From assembly GCA_947500385.1 (NCBI GenBank), contig CANMSA010000003.1:1-64000 (forward strand): a stretch of 64,000 bases of DNA, read 5' to 3'. This DNA is from an uncultured Flavobacteriaceae bacterium (GTDB lineage: Bacteria > Bacteroidota > Bacteroidia > Flavobacteriales > Flavobacteriaceae). A program made the translations under genes and the position numbers. This document shows positions 51,022 through 58,088 of this stretch, piece by piece (within the stretch, counting starts at the first letter, position 1; the number at the start of each line of letters is the position of its first letter). Below the pieces are notes generated by a model. It made no database searches, was not told the DNA's origin, and was given only the letters and a program-made list of their open reading frames with translations.

Positions 51022-51038
51022 TGGTTTTCAATTTTTTG

Positions 51039-51061
51039 ATACCGCAAAGATAGAGCGGTAT
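51039..51061 (-). promoter_or_regulatory. Candidate promoter inside an inverted repeat, DUF3829-like gene
   Basis: The minus strand has an exact -7 box TATCTTTG (51045-51052) about 24 bases before the ATG. It is bracketed by a perfect 7-bp inverted repeat, ATACCGC (51039-51045) and GCGGTAT (51055-51061). A protein bound there would cover the -7 box. No clear -33 TTG is seen. Confidence 0.45.
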
Positions 51062-51108
51062 TCTATGGAAATGCCCCCCATATTCCGTGAAAATGATGTC
51101 TTACGCCT

Positions 51109-51140
51109 AAAAAAAAACCGCCCCATATATGGAGCGGTCT
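51109..51140 (-). terminator. Rho-independent terminator of the beta-oxidation operon
   Basis: On the minus strand an 8-bp stem (ACCGCTCC / GGGGCGGT, one G-U pair) closes a loop of six bases and is followed by nine T's. It lies 37 bases past the stop of the acyl-CoA dehydrogenase gene and should end the operon that starts at the MarR promoter. Confidence 0.85.
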
Positions 51141-51175
51141 TTCCTTCTGTCCCAAAAAAATGGGGTCAATCCGAA

Positions 51176-52987
51176 TTAGTCAAAGGTGTAACCGTTATCT
51201 GCAGCTACCTGATCGGCAATTTGAGTGCGTAAGGCCACTACATTTGGGTTATTGGTGTATTTTGTAAAACGCTTTAGGCCCATTAACATCATGCGTTGTT
51301 CGTCGCCTTCGGCAAAAGATACGATGGCTTCTTTTCCTTTGCGAATAACCGTATCCGTGGCTTGGTACAGATAAAGTTTCGACATCGCTATCTGGGTGGC
51401 CTGCTTTTCTTCACCGAAACGTTTGGCGTTTTTCTCGGTTCGCAAGATGGCAGATTCTACCATATATACTTCGATAAGAATATCGGAGGCGGCCATCATT
51501 AGTTGTTGGTGCTTTTCCAATTCAGGACCAAACTTCTGAACCGCGCTACCAGCGACCATTAAGAACACTTTTTTCAATCTCGATACCAAATCTTTTTCTT
51601 CTGCGAAAAGTTCGGAAAAATCTGGTGAATCAAACGATGGTATTCCCATCAATTCTTCACCTACCGCGGTGGCAGGTCCTAGAAGATCTACATGGCCTTT
51701 CATGGCTTTTTTAACGAGCATTCCCACGGCCAACATTCTGTTAATTTCGTTGGTACCCTCGTATATACGGGCAATACGAGAGTCTCTCCAAGCAGATTCC
51801 ATAGGCGTATCGGCGCTAAAGCCCATTCCTCCAAAAATTTGAATCCCCTCGTCGGTGGTGTCTTGACAATGTTCTGAAACTGCTACTTTAAGAATGGAAC
51901 ATTCAATGGCATATTCTTCCACACCTTTAAGCTCTGCTTCTTGATGTGAATTTCCTTCCGCCTCTCGTATGGCGATGCGATCTTCGATATTTTTTGCAGC
52001 ACGGTAACTGGCCGATTCCCCTACATAGGCATTGGTAGCCATCGTCGCAATTTTTGACTTTATGGCCCCAAAATTCATAATGGGCGTTTTGAACTGAATA
52101 CGCTCATTGGCATACTTAACGGCTTCGGTAATGACGCGGCGCTGCGCATCCAAACAGGCTGCCGCCAATTTAATTCGACCCACGTTCAAGGCGTTCATGG
52201 CTATTTTAAAGCCATTTCCTCGTTCCGATAGCATATTTTCAACAGGCACCTTAGTGTCGCTAAAGAATACCTGACGGGTAGAGGAGGAGTGAATTCCCAA
52301 CTTCTTCTCTTCATCGCCAAGCGTAATTCCATTGCTTGGGTCATTTTCAACGATAAAACCGGTAATATTTTTATCATCCTCTATGCGGGCAAATACAATG
52401 AACATATTGCAGAAACCGGCATTTGAAATCCACATTTTTTGCCCTGAAATCGAGTAGTATTTACCATCTTCGGATAACACCGCCTTCGTTTTACCTGAAT
52501 TGGCATCCGATCCAGCTCCCGGTTCTGTCAAGCAATAGGCACCAAACCACTCGCCAGTAGCCAATTTCGGAACGTACTTAAGCTTTTGCTCCTCGTTTCC
52601 GTACAAGGTAATTGGCATGGTGCCAATTCCGGTATGGGCGCCAAAAGCAGTACTAAAAGATCCCGTTGCTCCGGAAATATAATCGCAAACTAGCATGGTT
52701 GAAACAAAACCCATTCCCAATCCGCCATAGGCTTCGGGCACGGCAATACCTAATAGTCCTAGTTCACCTGCTTTGCGCATGGTTTCTTCAGTAAAACCAT
52801 AGTCCTTGTTCTCAAATCGTTCCCAGTGCGCCCAAAGTTCCCTGTCTACAAATTCCTTGGTGCTTTCCCGCATCATTTGCTGTTCTTCGGAAAGGTCTTC
52901 CAACGTAAATACATCTTCGCATTGCGTTTCTTTAACGAGGAACTGTCCGCCTCTAAGAATGTCTTTTTGTATTGTTTCTGTGCTCAT
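51176..52987 (-). CDS. Acyl-CoA dehydrogenase (long FadE/VLCAD-like form)
   Basis: This 603-residue FAD enzyme catalyses the first step of fatty-acid beta-oxidation, making the trans-2-enoyl-CoA. The acyl-CoA dehydrogenase domains cover about 30-420: YCLTEPGAGSDANS (FAD/substrate loop), GQKMWISNAGF, IFGGMGFSADTP and the catalytic-Glu region IYEGTNEINRMLA. A helical C-terminal extension (about 440-600) makes it longer than the usual 380 residues, as in VLCAD/ACAD9-type enzymes, suggesting long-chain acyl substrates. It is the last gene of the MarR-led operon; an IVS-type cassette separates it from the thiolase gene. Confidence 0.93.
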   Translation of the reverse strand: MSTETIQKDILRGGQFLVKETQCEDVFTLEDLSEEQQMMRESTKEFVDRELWAHWERFENKDYGFTEETMRKAGELGLLGIAVPEAYGGLGMGFVSTMLVCDYISGATGSFSTAFGAHTGIGTMPITLYGNEEQKLKYVPKLATGEWFGAYCLTEPGAGSDANSGKTKAVLSEDGKYYSISGQKMWISNAGFCNMFIVFARIEDDKNITGFIVENDPSNGITLGDEEKKLGIHSSSTRQVFFSDTKVPVENMLSERGNGFKIAMNALNVGRIKLAAACLDAQRRVITEAVKYANERIQFKTPIMNFGAIKSKIATMATNAYVGESASYRAAKNIEDRIAIREAEGNSHQEAELKGVEEYAIECSILKVAVSEHCQDTTDEGIQIFGGMGFSADTPMESAWRDSRIARIYEGTNEINRMLAVGMLVKKAMKGHVDLLGPATAVGEELMGIPSFDSPDFSELFAEEKDLVSRLKKVFLMVAGSAVQKFGPELEKHQQLMMAASDILIEVYMVESAILRTEKNAKRFGEEKQATQIAMSKLYLYQATDTVIRKGKEAIVSFAEGDEQRMMLMGLKRFTKYTNNPNVVALRTQIADQVAADNGYTFD

Positions 52988-53005
52988 TACTGTTTAAATG
53001 TTTAG

Positions 53006-53040
53006 AAAAGAGAAAATAGAAGTAGGAAAAAGGACTTTAG
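53006..53040 (-). repeat. Downstream arm of inverted repeat flanking IVS-type cassette 1
   Basis: In the mRNA this pyrimidine-rich arm starts at the stop codon of the four-helix-bundle gene. It can pair with the upstream arm at 53401-53433: 11 consecutive pairs (AAAAGAGAAAA with its complement) at the base, then blocks of 4, 3, 4 and 3 pairs separated by small bulges, about 25 pairs in all by hand alignment. Confidence 0.65.
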
Positions 53041-53393
53041 TGTAATCCATTTTGAAAACCCATTGTCATTCGTTGCCATTCTTCAATTTTATTCTCCAGT
53101 GTTTTTAATATTTCGTCGTTTATATAATTTCGGTGATGGGCAATTAATAATTGAGTTCCTAGCTCATAGGATGAACTCAAAGAATAATCAATAAAATTTT
53201 TAAAACCTCTATCTGTTCTACCGGAACCCTCGGCAATGTTGCTCGGCATTGAAACGGAACATCTACTCAACTGTGAACTTAAATCGTACCGTTCATGCTT
53301 AGGGAATTCCAATAAAACATCAGAGATGTCATTTGCTATTTCAAGACCCAATTTCCAAATTTTAAGGTTTTTGTAATTGTGTCTTTTGGCCAT
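53037..53393 (-). CDS. Four-helix-bundle protein of the 23S rRNA IVS family (cassette 1)
   Basis: This 118-residue protein belongs to the four-helix-bundle family first seen in intervening sequences of bacterial 23S rRNA (S23/IVS proteins) and related to Avd of diversity-generating elements. Family landmarks are NLKIWKLGLEIANDI near the start, FPKHERYDLSSQLSRCSVSM, the signature PSNIAEGSGR and the later ELGTQLLIA helix. The basic surface fits nucleic-acid binding, but no role is proven. It lies between the thiolase and acyl-CoA dehydrogenase genes, with inverted-repeat arms on both sides, so it would sit in the loop of an mRNA stem. It is a clear but divergent homologue of the protein at 54671-55027. 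Confidence 0.92.
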   Translation of the reverse strand: MAKRHNYKNLKIWKLGLEIANDISDVLLEFPKHERYDLSSQLSRCSVSMPSNIAEGSGRTDRGFKNFIDYSLSSSYELGTQLLIAHHRNYINDEILKTLENKIEEWQRMTMGFQNGLH

Positions 53394-53400
53394 AGTTCTT

Positions 53401-53433
53401 CTATTGTCTTTTGTCTAGCTTCTTTTCTCTTTT
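53401..53433 (-). repeat. Upstream arm of inverted repeat flanking IVS-type cassette 1
   Basis: This purine-rich arm in the mRNA begins at the thiolase stop codon (53432-53434) and ends 7 bases before the ATG of the four-helix-bundle gene. It pairs with 53006-53040. The loop-proximal part contains AAAAGAC, a motif also present in the arm of cassette 2. Confidence 0.65.
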
Positions 53434-54625
53434 AAGAAAGAAATTCAAAAATCCCTGCCGCCCCTTGTCCGGTTCCGACACACATGGTGACCATGCCATA
53501 TTTCCCCTGCATATTTCGCTGTCGCATTTCATCAAAAAGCTGCACGGAGAGTTTTGCACCCGTGCACCCCAAAGGATGCCCCAAGGCGATGGCGCCACCA
53601 TTCACATTTACAATGTCTTGGTTTAGGTTCAATTCTCTCATAACCGCAAGCGACTGGGAAGCAAATGCTTCATTCAATTCAATTAGTTCTATGTCGTCCT
53701 GTTTGAGTCCTGCTTGTTTTAATGCCTTTGGAATAGCCGCTACGGGCCCAATACCCATAATTCTTGGCGGTACCCCTGCCGCGGCATAATTTACCAAGCG
53801 CGCAATGGGTTCTAAATTCAGTTCTTTCACCATCTCTTCGCTCATCACCATTACGAATGCCGCACCGTCGCTCATTTGCGACGAGTTACCGGCCGTAACA
53901 CTGCCACCAGCGGCAAATACAGGACGCAGCTTGTTCAACACTTCCACTGAAGTTCCTTTTCTAGGGCCTTCGTCCTTGGTCACCGTATATTTTTTGGTGG
54001 CTCTCTTTCCGTCGGCATCTATATAGGTCTGTTCTACCTCAATAGGCGCTATTTGCTTTTGAAAACGATCTTCCGCTTGTGCTTTCAGTGCTTTCATGTG
54101 CGAGTTGTAAGCAAACTGATCCTGGTCTTCCCGTGAAACCTTGTACTCATTGGCAACCGCTTCCGCAGTATTTCCCATACCCCAGTAATAGTCCTCATGT
54201 CCAGCGCTTACCAAATCATAATTCAGTTCGGTCTTGTAGCCCGTCATGGGAACGGCGCTCATGCTTTCGGCCCCACCAGCGATAATACAATCGGCCATAC
54301 CTGCTTGAATTTTAGCCGTGGCAATACCGATCGTTTCAATTCCTGAAGAACAAAAACGATTGACGGTAACTCCTGGAACATCCACAATATCAAGCCCCAT
54401 TAAGGAAATCAACCGAGCCATATTCAAGCCTTGAGAACCTTCCGGCATCGCATTTCCAACGATTACGTCATCGATACGCTTCTTATCGAAATCGGGCAGT
54501 TCTTTCATCATATATTCGATGGTTTCGGCCGCTAACTCGTCGGTTCTTTTAAAACGAAATACCCCTTTAGGAGCTTTCCCCACTGCTGTTCTATAACCTT
54601 TTACTATATATGCTGTTTTATTCAT
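53432..54625 (-). CDS. fadA: Acetyl-CoA C-acyltransferase (3-ketoacyl-CoA thiolase)
   Basis: This 397-residue thiolase cleaves 3-ketoacyl-CoA with CoA in the last step of beta-oxidation. The acyl-accepting Cys92 lies in VNRFCSSGIETI, the catalytic His in GHPLGCTGA, and the second active Cys in MCVGTGQGAAGIF near the C-terminus. The NEAFASQ motif is also present. Length and motifs are standard for the family. It lies between IVS-type cassettes 1 and 2, downstream of the FadB-like gene, whose product makes its substrate. Confidence 0.93.
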   Translation of the reverse strand: MNKTAYIVKGYRTAVGKAPKGVFRFKRTDELAAETIEYMMKELPDFDKKRIDDVIVGNAMPEGSQGLNMARLISLMGLDIVDVPGVTVNRFCSSGIETIGIATAKIQAGMADCIIAGGAESMSAVPMTGYKTELNYDLVSAGHEDYYWGMGNTAEAVANEYKVSREDQDQFAYNSHMKALKAQAEDRFQKQIAPIEVEQTYIDADGKRATKKYTVTKDEGPRKGTSVEVLNKLRPVFAAGGSVTAGNSSQMSDGAAFVMVMSEEMVKELNLEPIARLVNYAAAGVPPRIMGIGPVAAIPKALKQAGLKQDDIELIELNEAFASQSLAVMRELNLNQDIVNVNGGAIALGHPLGCTGAKLSVQLFDEMRQRNMQGKYGMVTMCVGTGQGAAGIFEFLS

Positions 54626-54643
54626 AAATGTATTTTTGGATGT

Positions 54644-54672
54644 AAAGACGAAAAGAAGAAAGAATAAAGACT
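54644..54672 (-). repeat. Downstream arm of inverted repeat flanking IVS-type cassette 2
   Basis: This pyrimidine-rich arm in the mRNA begins within the TAG stop of the four-helix-bundle gene (54671-54673). It pairs with 55030-55051 in three blocks of 6, 6 and 8 base pairs (AAAGAC, AAAAGA and TAAAGACT with their complements), with one mismatch and one asymmetric internal loop. Confidence 0.65.
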
Positions 54673-55027
54673 AATTACTTAAACTCCTTCGAAATCGTGA
54701 TATCATTTTTTGTAATTGCTGTATTTTAGTTTCAAAATCTTTATACGAATCTTCTTTAATGTAACCAGCTTTAAAAGCAATAATTAGTTGCGTTTCCCAT
54801 TCAAATGCTGATCCCAGGCTATTTTCTAAAAACCGGCCGAAATGTTTATCTGTACTTTTACTACTTCCCTCGGCAATATTTGAAGGTATAGATACCGCAG
54901 ATCTGTTCATTTGACTACTTAAGCCATACTTCTCAAATTTTGGGAACGTTCTTGTAATTTTATATGAACTTTGAACCAAGGACATCCCCTCTTCCCAAAT
55001 TTTAAGTTTTCTAAAATTATGAGTCAT
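54671..55027 (-). CDS. Four-helix-bundle protein of the 23S rRNA IVS family (cassette 2)
   Basis: This 118-residue homologue of the protein at 53037-53393 has the same length and landmarks: KLKIWEEGMSLVQSSYKI, FPKFEKYGLSSQMNRSAVSI, PSNIAEGSSK and WETQLIIAFKAGYI. Sequence differences are spread over the whole length, so it is not a recent tandem copy. It lies between the FadB-like and thiolase genes and is flanked by its own inverted-repeat arms (55030-55051 and 54644-54672); the start codon follows the upstream arm by two bases. No function is known for the family outside 23S rRNA and DGR settings. Confidence 0.92.
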   Translation of the reverse strand: MTHNFRKLKIWEEGMSLVQSSYKITRTFPKFEKYGLSSQMNRSAVSIPSNIAEGSSKSTDKHFGRFLENSLGSAFEWETQLIIAFKAGYIKEDSYKDFETKIQQLQKMISRFRRSLSN

Positions 55028-55029
55028 TC

Positions 55030-55051
55030 AGTCTTTACTCTTTTTGTCTTT
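55030..55051 (-). repeat. Upstream arm of inverted repeat flanking IVS-type cassette 2
   Basis: This purine-rich arm in the mRNA (AAAGAC...TAAAGACT) ends two bases before the ATG of the four-helix-bundle gene and begins 12 bases past the FadB-like stop. It pairs with 54644-54672 over about 20 base pairs. Confidence 0.65.
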
Positions 55052-55063
55052 CGGTCAAATTCA

Positions 55064-57469
55064 TTAATTACGTAACGGTTTCCCCGTCTTCAACATATGC
55101 TGAATGCGTTCCAATGTTTTCTTTTCACTACAAAGCGATAGGAAGGCTTCGCGTTCCAGATCCAACAAATATTGTTCGTTGACCTGGGTGGGTTCCGATA
55201 AATCGCCCCCGGCCATTACGTAGGCCAATTTGTTGGCAATTTTCTTATCGTGTTCGCTGATGTAGTGACTCGCTTCCATGGAATCGGTCCCGACCAAGAA
55301 CATTCCCAAAGCCTGTTTTCCAAGTACTTTGATGTCTTTTCTTTTAGGTGGTTGGGTGTAGCCCGCTTCTGCCATTAATTTGGCATGTGCTTTTGCGGTC
55401 GCTATCTGGCGATCCTTGTTCACAACAACGATATCTTTGCCTGCTTGTAAGATTCCTAAATCAAAGGCCTCGTAAGCGGAGGTAGATACCTTGGCCATGC
55501 CTATGGTCAGGAAATACTCCTGTAATACGTTTAGTTCAACATCGTTCTTTTTAAAGGTGTCTTGGGCACGCACAGCAAATTCTTTGGAACCACCCCCTCC
55601 TGGAATGACACCCACCCCGAATTCTACCAAACCGATATAGGTCTCGGCCGCGGCCACAACTTTGTCCGCATGGAGCGATAGTTCACAGCCGCCGCCAAGG
55701 GTCATGCCGTGTGGAGCCGATACGGTCGGAATGGAGGAGTAACGCATGCGCATCATGGTATCCTGAAACATTTTGATGGCCATGTTCAACTCATCATACT
55801 CCTGTTCGACGGCCATCATAAAAATCATTCCGATATTGGCACCTACCGAAAAATTGGCCGCCTGGTTGCCTACGACCAACCCTTGATAGTCTTTTTCGGC
55901 CAAGTCGATCGCTTTGTTCAAACCGGCCAGCACATCCCCGCCGATGGTATTCATTTTCGACTGGAATTCAACATTTAGAATGCCATCCCCGATATCCTCG
56001 ATGACCACCCCGCTATTTTTAAATACTTCGTTCGACTTGCGAATGTTGTCAAGGATGATAAACGAATCTTGTCCGGGTATTTTTTCAATGCCTTTTTTAG
56101 GGATATCATAGAAATAGGTCGCCCCGTCTTTTACCGCATAAAATGACTTTTGACCCGAACCCAACATTTCAGCAACCCAAGGGGCCGCTTCGGCATTTTC
56201 GGCCTTCATCATTGCCAACCCTTCTTCTACGCCAATTGCATCCCAAATTTGAAACGGACCATGTTCCCAACCAAAGCCGGCTTTCATAGCATCATCTATC
56301 TTATACAGCTCATCGGTTATTTCCGGGATTCTATGCGATACGTATGCGAACAAGGCTGCAAAGCTTTTTCTGTAGAACGCGCCGGCTTTGTCTTTTCCTC
56401 CCACAAGTACCTTAAACCTGTCAACTACTTTATCGATGGTCTTGGTCAATTCAAGGGTCGCAAACTTGGCGCTTTTCTTTGAACGATAGTCCATCGTATC
56501 CAAATCAAGTGTCAGAATCTCGGTCTTCCCATTGGCTCCTTTCGATTTCTTGTAAAACCCTTGGCCCGACTTGCTGCCCAGCCATTTGTTCTCCATAAGG
56601 GTGTTTATGAAATCGGGCAGTTGGAACAGGGCGTGTTGCTCATCTTCCTTACAGTTTTCGGCAATCCCATTGGCTACATGAACCAAGGTATCCAACCCCA
56701 CTACATCTACGGTTCTAAAAGTGGCGGACTTGGGGCGTCCTATTACGGGACCGGTGAGTTTATCGACTTCCTCTACGGTCATTCCCATGTCTTTGACCAT
56801 ATGAAAGAGACTCTGTATGCTGAAAATCCCGATTCGGTTTCCGATAAAAGCAGGCGTATCCTTGGCAACGACCGACGTTTTTCCTAGGAATTGTTCCCCA
56901 TATCCGTTCAGGAAGTCTAATACCTCCGGGTCGGTTTTGGGGCCTGGTATAATTTCAAACAATTTTAGATAACGCGCCGGATTAAAGAAATGCGTTCCGC
57001 AAAAGTGCTTCTGAAAATCATCGCTACGGCCTTCACTCATGAATTTGATAGGAATACCGGAAGTGTTCGAAGTAATCAAAGTACCCGGTGTTCGGTGTTT
57101 TTCCAAGTTTTCAAAAACCATCTTCTTGATATCCAGTCGCTCTACGACTACTTCAATAATCCAATCGACTTTTGAAACCTTGGCGATGTCATCCTCTAAA
57201 TTGCCGGTAACGATCCGATCGGCAAATTTTTTATGGTAAATAGGGGAGGGCTTGGATTTTAAAGCCGCTGTCAAAGAATCGTTCACCAACCGATTGCGAA
57301 CTATTTTGTCTTCCAAGGTGAGCCCTTTGGCCTGTTCCTTGGCATTTAATTCCCTTGGAACTATATCCAACAATAAAACTTCTACTCCGATATTGGCAAA
57401 ATGACAGGCGATACCGCTTCCCATAATCCCGGAGCCTATAACCGCCACCTTTTTAATATGCTTGTTCAT
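55064..57469 (-). CDS. 3-hydroxyacyl-CoA dehydrogenase / enoyl-CoA hydratase bifunctional enzyme
   Basis: This 801-residue enzyme performs hydration of enoyl-CoA and NAD-dependent oxidation of 3-hydroxyacyl-CoA. The dehydrogenase comes first: Rossmann motif VAVIGSGIMGSGIACHFANI (about 8-27), the active-site region HFFNPARYLKL and GFIGNR-like PAFIGNRIGIF, then C-terminal 3HCDH domains to about 400. The crotonase-fold hydratase follows (about 490-700), with the oxyanion/glutamate region HGMTLGGGCELSLHAD and GVGVIPGGGGSKE. This order is the reverse of E. coli FadB but is usual for this type. It starts 14 bases after the MarR gene stop; IVS-type cassette 2 follows. Confidence 0.93.
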   Translation of the reverse strand: MNKHIKKVAVIGSGIMGSGIACHFANIGVEVLLLDIVPRELNAKEQAKGLTLEDKIVRNRLVNDSLTAALKSKPSPIYHKKFADRIVTGNLEDDIAKVSKVDWIIEVVVERLDIKKMVFENLEKHRTPGTLITSNTSGIPIKFMSEGRSDDFQKHFCGTHFFNPARYLKLFEIIPGPKTDPEVLDFLNGYGEQFLGKTSVVAKDTPAFIGNRIGIFSIQSLFHMVKDMGMTVEEVDKLTGPVIGRPKSATFRTVDVVGLDTLVHVANGIAENCKEDEQHALFQLPDFINTLMENKWLGSKSGQGFYKKSKGANGKTEILTLDLDTMDYRSKKSAKFATLELTKTIDKVVDRFKVLVGGKDKAGAFYRKSFAALFAYVSHRIPEITDELYKIDDAMKAGFGWEHGPFQIWDAIGVEEGLAMMKAENAEAAPWVAEMLGSGQKSFYAVKDGATYFYDIPKKGIEKIPGQDSFIILDNIRKSNEVFKNSGVVIEDIGDGILNVEFQSKMNTIGGDVLAGLNKAIDLAEKDYQGLVVGNQAANFSVGANIGMIFMMAVEQEYDELNMAIKMFQDTMMRMRYSSIPTVSAPHGMTLGGGCELSLHADKVVAAAETYIGLVEFGVGVIPGGGGSKEFAVRAQDTFKKNDVELNVLQEYFLTIGMAKVSTSAYEAFDLGILQAGKDIVVVNKDRQIATAKAHAKLMAEAGYTQPPKRKDIKVLGKQALGMFLVGTDSMEASHYISEHDKKIANKLAYVMAGGDLSEPTQVNEQYLLDLEREAFLSLCSEKKTLERIQHMLKTGKPLRN

Positions 57470-57483
57470 CTAACGTATTAAGA

Positions 57484-57933
57484 TTAATTAGTTGTCTCTG
57501 TGATGTATATCTTTTTTTCAACAACCAGGTTGTTGATTGTTTCCATTACCTCAAAAAAGGAATGTAACTGTTCTTTGCTAATATTGTTTTTGACCACCTC
57601 GTTGAACCTCAATACCACATCTTTCGAATCTTTTCTTTTTTCCAGCCCGAAATCGGTAAGATGAATCAATACCCCTCTCCCGTCTTTCGGATTGGGTTTC
57701 CGCTGAATCAACCCTTTCTCTTCCATGCTTTTGAGGATACGGGAAAGACTAGTAGCTTCCATGCCCATTTTTGGCCCTAGCGCCGTCGAAGGCGTTCCTG
57801 TTTTCGGGTCAATACTTAATAAGGTAAAGCCGACTGCCATGGTGGAACCAAAACCTTTTGCCTCCTCATTATACATTCTGGCAACTGCTTGCCAGGTAGC
57901 CCTAAGGGCATAGTCTATTGTTACTTCCTTCAT
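57484..57933 (-). CDS. MarR family transcriptional regulator
   Basis: This 149-residue winged-helix regulator shows recognition-helix and wing segments in SLSRILKSMEEKGLIQRKPN and DGRGVLIHLTDFGLEKRK, with dimerisation helices at both ends. It is the first gene of the beta-oxidation operon and probably represses it, responding to acyl-CoA or fatty acid; that ligand is inferred from the neighbours. A perfect 30-base palindrome 30 bases upstream overlaps the promoter (57953-57992), the expected site for a homodimer, so autoregulation is likely. Confidence 0.92.
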   Translation of the reverse strand: MKEVTIDYALRATWQAVARMYNEEAKGFGSTMAVGFTLLSIDPKTGTPSTALGPKMGMEATSLSRILKSMEEKGLIQRKPNPKDGRGVLIHLTDFGLEKRKDSKDVVLRFNEVVKNNISKEQLHSFFEVMETINNLVVEKKIYITETTN

Positions 57934-57952
57934 TGTATTGGTTGTGGGAAGT

Positions 57953-57992
57953 CAAATATAGGAAAATTTATTATGCATGCATAATAAATTTT
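57953..57992 (-). promoter_or_regulatory. Promoter and palindromic operator of the marR-fad operon
   Basis: The minus strand has an exact -7 box TATATTTG (57953-57960), 20 bases before the MarR ATG. Two bases upstream lies a perfect 30-base palindrome (57963-57992) centred on TGCA, core TTATGCATGCATAA, covering the region of the -33 element. A MarR dimer bound there would block RNA polymerase. Confidence 0.75.
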
Positions 57993-58088
57993 TGAAAATT
58001 TGATGAAGTGTTTCGGGCGTCGATGTTCGGTGATTTCCCTACCATTCATCCTAAACGTACGGGAGTGATTGTAGGCTAGGAACGGCCG

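Follow-up and report, generated by a model that had tools for sequence, protein, structure and literature searches.

Helix-bundle gene cassettes in two gaps of a flavobacterial fad operon: candidate intervening-sequence-type elements of polycistronic mRNA

How does a protein family known from the intervening sequences (IVSs) of ribosomal RNA (rRNA) come to lie between the genes of a fatty-acid oxidation (fad) operon, and what is it doing there? The question is raised by the window, as we call the whole stretch of 64,000 nucleotides analysed here (positions 1 to 64,000 of contig CANMSA010000003.1, assembly GCA_947500385.1, from an uncultured Flavobacteriaceae bacterium), in which six co-directional genes occupy the minus strand in the order marR, fadB, helix-bundle gene A, fadA, helix-bundle gene B and acyl-CoA dehydrogenase. 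The initial annotation had recognised four-helix-bundle cassettes in two gaps of this one operon, and a PF05635 gene was indeed found in both. The protein family and the rRNA IVS are known; here members of the family lie between protein-coding genes of operons. We hold it fairly probable that each cassette is an IVS-type element living in polycistronic mRNA, which would be cut there and whose effect on the host would be tolerated. It is regarded as an IVS-type mRNA element and not as a 23S IVS, since it is like an rRNA IVS in protein family, length, stem, heptamers and patchy presence, and unlike one in location.

Both proteins match PF05635, the rRNA intervening-sequence protein family (1.7e-38 for gene A, 3.3e-29 for gene B), as well as TIGR02436, so that the assignment to the IVS family stands; they are 44% identical to each other. 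The structure model of gene A (mean pLDDT 97.2) resembles the S23p structures most closely (2GSC with a TM of 0.93, 2RLD next) and the Avd protein of the Bordetella phage retroelement (4DWL, 8UBE) with a TM of 0.79. The Avd equivalog cut-off was missed by gene A (22.2 bits, 80 being required), and gene B gave no Avd equivalog match at 0.001. The protein is under purifying selection, the dN/dS values of pairs with at least 80% identity and a finite value being 0.026-0.225 by a simple counting method in which dS was often high. Since at least 21 PF05635 rows carry in-frame stops (by eye, among the matches listed), decay of the helix-bundle gene also happens. PF05635 proteins are common in Bacteroidota (160 of the 199 genomes sampled from the Flavobacteriaceae), where their annotation goes no further than 'four helix bundle protein' or 'S23 ribosomal protein'.

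The placement of such genes was read in two sets of loci. The order set, taken from the window's own order, holds 98 loci found with a profile made from the window's two proteins (133 hits before the removal of duplicates) and amounts to about half, the better-scoring part, of the 190 PF05635 matches in 60 genomes; the named set holds 80 loci from named genomes, of which 79 were usable. Neighbours were assigned by simple open reading frame (ORF) rules (at least 90 aa), with no gene caller. The helix-bundle gene was co-directional with both neighbours at 89 loci of the order set, not so at 3, and a neighbour was missing at the edge of a contig or stretch at 6; the respective numbers in the named set were 75, 2 and 2. 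Sense placement was therefore seen at 89/92 and 75/77 of the loci having both neighbours, while in 400 kb of the window's own genome 142/311 genes, and 26/41 of those encoding 90-150 aa, were co-directional. The difference from all genes is established for the window's order (p 1e-26; 3e-23 in the named set), as is that from the small genes (1e-6, order set), though these p values overstate the evidence because related genomes are not independent.

The 89 sense loci of the order set represent 59 distinct contexts. Recurrent sites, with gene names that are our own reading of the neighbour sequences, were ruvC-hemW, ffh-folD, sufC-sufD, sufA-sufB, leuC-leuD and a thioredoxin-reductase-like gene paired with a ferredoxin; hemD-hemE was read at one locus, and a second locus has the same downstream neighbour. 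The fad operon is thus not special in kind. Before the cassettes TAG was over-used as the stop codon (45/91 and 35/78, compared with 49/186 in the window's own genome). In Flavobacterium columnare guanylate kinase, a helix-bundle protein and nicotinate-nucleotide adenylyltransferase are consecutive in table 5 of PMC5524665; the stretch, which is filed there under phage elements, resembles the same kind of intercistronic cassette.

Each cassette sits in a stem, as had been annotated, with 21 bp (-19.5 kcal/mol) for hairpin A and 25 bp (-20.2 kcal/mol) for hairpin B, and own-arm duplexes had a median of 24 bp in the two sets (69 and 55 loci). In the minimum-energy folds of both cassettes the ends were paired with the gene inside; the z-scores of whole-cassette folding (-1.19 for A, 11 of 100 shuffles being as good, and -2.11 for B, with 2 of 100) were kept out of the main evidence because they are weak. 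It is as a class that the stems are strong. When each 90-nt upstream flank of the 98 loci was paired with every downstream flank, own pairs had a mean of -33.4 kcal/mol and swapped pairs -21.1 kcal/mol, and the own partner was the best in its row at 21/98 loci and within the top five at 49/98. Single-arm dinucleotide shuffles gave z < -2 at 54/98 loci, the values for the window's two being just -1.1 and -0.4. The pairing was also compared inside gap types, for which both sets supplied the loci whose flanks measure 15-140 and 15-160 nt and whose neighbours are co-directional, all others being excluded. Own pairs reached -25.2 versus -14.3 kcal/mol in fadB-fadA gaps (n=31), -22.9 versus -18.2 in fadA-dehydrogenase gaps (n=29) and -28.6 versus -13.2 at other sites (n=71), none of 2000 permutations equalling the own pairs in any of the three. 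Since the effect persists inside gap types, the two arms of a locus fit each other even if the loci next to it have different ones. A median of 3 nt in one set and 5 nt in the other separates the arms from the upstream stop, and one of 3 and 2 nt, respectively, from the stop of the helix-bundle gene itself, a closeness that short flanks favour by construction. No Rfam match at the gathering score was obtained anywhere in the window.

As a class, the arms are built of degenerate heptamers. The lag tests, which rest on single-base shuffles, used flanks from the 98 loci of 20 to 130 or 140 nt that reach a co-directional neighbour. The lag-7 identity was 0.490 in 82 5' flanks (0.307 expected, z 26.1) and 0.505 in 78 3' flanks (0.305 expected, z 30.3); the lag-14 signal was likewise high (z 22.5 and 24.4), and the lag-7 z was 1.1 in 86 co-directional control gaps of the window's own genome. 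The named set gave lag-7 z values of 18.6 (71 5' flanks) and 21.1 (59 3' flanks). Lag 7 was the top one among lags 4-12 in 57/69 and 51/55 flank pairs, compared with 8/91 control gaps, and because it is the best in most flank pairs the signal does not come from a few loci. The arms are also polar: a 5' flank with G>C together with a 3' flank with C>G was seen in 47 pairs and the opposite in 3 (of 69), and in 36 versus 1 (of 55), while control gaps gave 24 versus 12 (of 91). In the window the heptamers of cassette B are significant (lag-7 p 0.027 for the 5' arm, 0.006 for the 3' arm), as are the four arms pooled (p 0.0015). This anatomy of paired, polar heptamer arms around a helix-bundle gene is established for the class; surveyed for flanking inverted repeats and operon positions, the helix-bundle genes of the two sets commonly have stems and sense intergenic placement. 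Heptamers also occur with no helix-bundle gene: contig C3 of G000 carries (GAGGTTT)n and (AGAGGTT)n arrays at 102903-103055 and 286365-286516 (L182, L191), directly or 8 nt past a stop codon and between co-directional ORFs. A scan of 400 kb of the window's own genome for bare hairpins returned mostly T-run hairpins resembling terminators (by eye).

The fad operons of relatives suggest that such cassettes are gained and lost. Among 51 fadA loci compared, gene order was conserved where neighbours were found, and 20 of the 97 measurable fad gaps, from 17 genomes, held a helix-bundle gene (11 fadB-fadA, 9 fadA-dehydrogenase; that of G012 is interrupted by an in-frame stop). The remaining gaps were 29 of 41-400 nt, 47 shorter ones and a long one (G040), in which tblastn found no match to A or B. 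In 24 further gene-bearing genomes 9/48 fad gaps held the gene. The fad loci of the named set comprised 28 in the fadA-dehydrogenase gap, 21 in fadB-fadA, 2 in marR-fadB and 1 following fadA where its contig ends, a share that is no measure of enrichment because the set was picked by likeness to fad-gap proteins. The cassettes are not randomly placed: related operons have them in the same gaps again and again, as the initial annotation would have it. Their presence is patchy nevertheless. Within the genus of the window's genome the fadB-fadA gap holds one subfamily in G001, G003, G007 and G008, another in the window, a bare 139-nt hairpin in G009 and 3-20 nt in G002, G004, G005 and G006. A fadB-fadA gap of 3-5 nt is seen in G002, G004, G006, G010 and G034. 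Twenty-nine examined genomes (13 + 16, nine of the 16 taken as match-free by elimination from a match table) retain the fad operon with no PF05635 match. The fad gaps of G009, G027, G080 and G150 contain another kind of hairpin, with a C-rich 5' arm, a G-rich or mixed 3' arm and no heptamers.

With the same-gap genes of G008, G007 and G001 gene A shares 38-42% identity, though their FadB proteins are 96-98% identical to the window's; with the fadA-dehydrogenase-gap genes of G014 and G015, whose FadB is about 85% identical, it shares 72-73%. The protein trees show mostly gap-specific groups with exceptions. In the 98-locus tree (96 rows used) gene A stands beside fadA-dehydrogenase-gap genes (support 84); in a 78-row tree, in which 12/75 inner branches are starred and many forks are weak, it pairs with a fadB-fadA-gap gene (L197) and the pair joins 16 other-gap genes (support 87), five changes between the two gaps being counted. 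In the ruvC-hemW gap distant subfamilies are found in G000, G003 and G004 versus G020 (L002, L142, L143 versus L170), and G001 and G007 are filled as in G020, judged from one neighbour each. Since same-gap genes of close relatives belong to different subfamilies, gaps have been lost and refilled.

The features of the operon are collected in Table 1. A palindrome with the core ATGCNNGCAT lies upstream of marR in 37/42 operons, the window's included (counted by eye, at the best palindrome). Together with the G+C-rich T-run hairpin past the last gene it makes a MarR-controlled operon, as initially annotated, a fair reading of the locus; the conserved palindrome stands, and MarR control itself is plausible. 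In a scan for the Bacteroidetes-type promoter consensus, which we take to be TTTG...TAnnTTTG, a -7 element was present before marR and the motif was not found before gene A or gene B. It is for this lack of a motif that we infer the cassettes to be read together with the operon.

Table 1. Features of the fad operon and its two cassettes (positions in the window)
Feature	Position	Strand	Basis
Probable MarR operator palindrome, TTATTATGCATGCATAATAAA core, upstream of marR	57952..58003	no strand	inverted repeat
marR-type regulator gene, at the head of the operon	57484..57933	-	ORF and family match
fadB-type 3-hydroxyacyl-CoA dehydrogenase / enoyl-CoA hydratase	55064..57469	-	ORF and family match
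Cassette A, 438 nt, the entire fadB-fadA gap	54626..55063	-	comparison with gaps of relatives
Hairpin A 5' arm, starting 6 nt past the fadB stop codon	55031..55057	-	21-bp duplex with 54646-54670
Four-helix-bundle gene A, 118 aa	54671..55027	-	PF05635/TIGR02436; structure model
Hairpin A 3' arm, immediately past the gene A stop	54646..54670	-	duplex with 5' arm
fadA-type thiolase	53432..54625	-	ORF and family match
Cassette B, 444 nt, the entire fadA-acyl-CoA dehydrogenase gap	52988..53431	-	gap measurement
Hairpin B 5' arm, starting within the fadA stop codon	53405..53434	-	25-bp duplex with 53005-53036
Four-helix-bundle gene B, 118 aa	53037..53393	-	PF05635/TIGR02436
Hairpin B 3' arm, immediately past the gene B stop	53005..53036	-	duplex with 5' arm
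FadE-type acyl-CoA dehydrogenase, at the end of the operon	51176..52987	-	ORF and family match
G+C-rich hairpin and T-run past the last gene, likely operon terminator	51113..51142	-	palindrome in gap 51022-51175

As a class, the cassette is a long imperfect hairpin of degenerate heptamer arms, mostly G-rich on the 5' side and complementary on the 3' side, with the gene filling the loop; the 5' arm starts at or a few nucleotides past the upstream stop and the 3' arm right past that of the helix-bundle gene. Read with the operon, its stem would probably be cut by RNase III, as in the rRNA IVSs, which are excised with no ligation. The cut would set the message of the helix-bundle gene free and divide the operon mRNA at a spot where little harm is done. 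The protein, of S23p/Avd fold, probably binds the heptamer RNA and promotes upkeep or spread of the element. Such elements would be gained and lost, enter a given gap more than once and move from one gap of an operon to another. Since the presence is patchy, the effect on the host would be tolerated rather than required.

Several observations weigh against this interpretation. As single loci the pairing of A and B is not exceptional, the window arms ranking 8th/13th (A) and 19th/15th (B) by row/column against the arms of the other loci (90-nt flanks, 98 loci), and the arms of cassette A taken alone have no significant heptamers (p 0.35 for the 5' arm, 0.17 for the 3' arm). Arm pairing is no proof of an RNA role, because DNA-level copying between the arms could yield the same matching. 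In the phylum-wide sample of the best-scoring 30 loci, which include a few from the window's own family, co-orientation is a weaker rule (23/30), and beside lag 7 (z 7.8/9.4) lag 8 is also raised (z 2.0/6.7); own arms paired there at -32.3 versus -25.3 kcal/mol when swapped. At the cyanobacterial plasmid loci described below, 10/14 were co-directional, 1 mixed and 3 antisense to both neighbours, and in 2 of the 8 computed (L278 and L284; -4.3 and -4.5 kcal/mol) the arms were unpaired. A strict dependence of bare hairpins on a helix-bundle gene in trans was rejected as a rule: in the first set of 51 operons bare hairpins were found in 0/25 gaps of gene-free and 29/51 gaps of gene-bearing genomes (p 2e-7), and in 40 new genomes in 11/32 and 19/39 gaps, respectively (p 0.24). 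No mobility function is visible in the helix-bundle protein. Of the 68 fad-operon proteins in the 78-row tree, 67 form a cluster that excludes the other 10 proteins (support 83), as would be expected also from a function tied to the fad operon. Finally, co-transcription and RNase III cutting are both steps that we infer.

The initial annotation went further and read the stems as possible processing sites that serve the host: by cutting there the polycistron would be divided into one message for marR-fadB, one for fadA and one for the dehydrogenase, whose ratios would thus be fixed, and the protein could bind its own stem. The hairpins are rightly placed for this, their arms match locus by locus, they stand in sense inside the operon, the protein group is largely fad-specific and under purifying selection, and the palindrome and the gene order are conserved. 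We consider this unlikely all the same, given relatives of the same genus whose corresponding gap is 3-20 nt, the same type of cassette in unrelated operons and the refilling of the gap by other subfamilies. A necessary role in setting Fad ratios is disfavoured because close relatives lack the cassettes and 29 genomes keep the operon with no PF05635 match; some role in these ratios is possible and is not needed to explain the data.

The arms might, on the other hand, owe nothing to the gene: a heptamer hairpin made as a simple repeat by replication slippage and template switching would then be the real element, collecting between operon genes, the helix-bundle gene being a passenger that landed in its loop. 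Several of the 29 mid-length fad gaps (pooled lag-7 z 11.5) are plainly bare hairpins, G076, which has no PF05635 match, has bare heptamer hairpins too (z 5.1 and 4.2), G000 has gene-free arrays, and heptamers are the commonest longer simple-repeat class in most genomes examined (PMC4679880, citing earlier work). Heptamers flank the gene at most loci, however, and their polarity tracks its sense, also in 2 of the 3 antisense cyanobacterial cases (by eye), which makes a mere passenger quite unlikely. That the protein serves the host as an accessory to fatty-acid oxidation, being passed on together with the operon, often lost and only incidentally flanked by hairpins, would explain the mostly gap-specific clades of the fad proteins and their purifying selection; since the family also occurs in suf, leu, ruvC-hemW, ffh-folD and cas operons, gene A groups with other-gap genes, and heptamer flanks were found in every set tested, we regard this as very improbable. 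An ordinary miniature transposon or insertion sequence, to which the inverted repeats, the patchy distribution and the repeated occupation of gaps might point, is hardly credible in view of arms that vary by locus with no fixed terminal repeat or target-site duplication seen (by eye), the strong sense orientation, the polarity of the arms and a sole gene that is no transposase.

The IVS-type reading is extended by the plasmids of cyanobacteria, whose heptanucleotide repeats are termed STRR. PF05635 matches were found in 22 plasmid records, 20 of them cyanobacterial by name; 15 plasmid loci were read and 14 tested, the Gemmatirosa locus, which has no annotation, being excluded. Several cyanobacterial flanks are plain heptamer arrays, e.g. 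(AGTAGGG)n ahead of the gene and (CCCTACT)n behind it, the pooled lag-7 z values are 13.3/13.4 (8 loci) and 6.1/5.7 (6 loci), and the polarity is 8 versus 0 (of 14). Three of the plasmid loci (L279, L282, L360) lie in CRISPR operons, with the order cas6, helix-bundle gene, cas4 (type I-D) in the Pseudanabaena and Anabaena 90 plasmids and cas10, helix-bundle gene, cmr3 (type III-B) in a Picosynechococcus plasmid. We tentatively suggest, as a possibility that we would not yet favour, that heptamer hairpins whose loop encloses a helix-bundle gene form a single class of mRNA element shared by Bacteroidota and Cyanobacteria, of which the 23S IVSs and at least a part of the cyanobacterial heptanucleotide repeats would be special cases; a ring-shaped protein would bind the G-rich heptamers, perhaps with each subunit taking one unit, and drive processing or spread of its own element.

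With these results the PF05635 family gains a defined genomic unit, a gene in a heptamer hairpin placed past a stop codon, mostly in sense, between core operon genes, and because of this unit its function becomes directly testable. Three separate curiosities may be connected through it, namely the intervening sequences of rRNA, the heptamer repeats between genes and the proteins of Avd type. Should the stems be cut, a processing site that is absent from present annotation exists in many Bacteroidota operons.

The hairpins invite comparison with several known systems. REPIN/RAYT systems consist of dispersed hairpins and a gene flanked by hairpin arms; the cassettes differ in that no nuclease family was matched and bare hairpins also occur in a PF05635-free genome. 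The accessory protein Avd of diversity-generating retroelements (4DWL, 8UBE) shares the fold (TM 0.79) and differs in that its equivalog cut-off is missed, the comparison being one of protein fold and profile score; the likeness of an S23p protein to Avd has been remarked (PMC10053308). A search of the open-access literature, outside which most subscription journals lie, returned no work joining the PF05635 family to heptamer hairpins or intercistronic elements; the helix-bundle family is merely named in the parts of PMC11637426 and PMC10910872 consulted. TAACTGA repeats are known in Beggiatoaceae, Cyanobacteria and Bacteroidetes (PMC4679880), and neither 'S23' nor 'four-helix' occurs in that paper. 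These and the STRR repeats are, like the cassette arms, intergenic tandem heptamers, and two phyla are shared; in the cassettes the unit sequence varies by locus and both stem arms carry heptamers.

The closest likeness is to the rRNA IVS. An S23p-family protein occurs in rRNA insertions of CPR bacteria (PMC11270868), and the Xanthomonas protein is reported to form a pentameric ring (PMC4990558, citing earlier work). The 23S IVS of Coxiella burnetii is 428-444 nt long with a 28-bp stem and an S23p ORF, which tandem GACAGAT heptamers adjoin; RNase III excises the element in vitro, and the ORF is decaying (PMC4990558). The cassettes of the window stand between fad genes and not inside an rRNA gene, the window-type protein is under purifying selection while the Coxiella ORF decays, and the RNase III cutting seen there in vitro is assumed here by analogy. 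The two kinds of element have in common the S23p family, a length of about 430-440 nt, a flanking stem with the gene in its loop, heptamers and a patchy presence.

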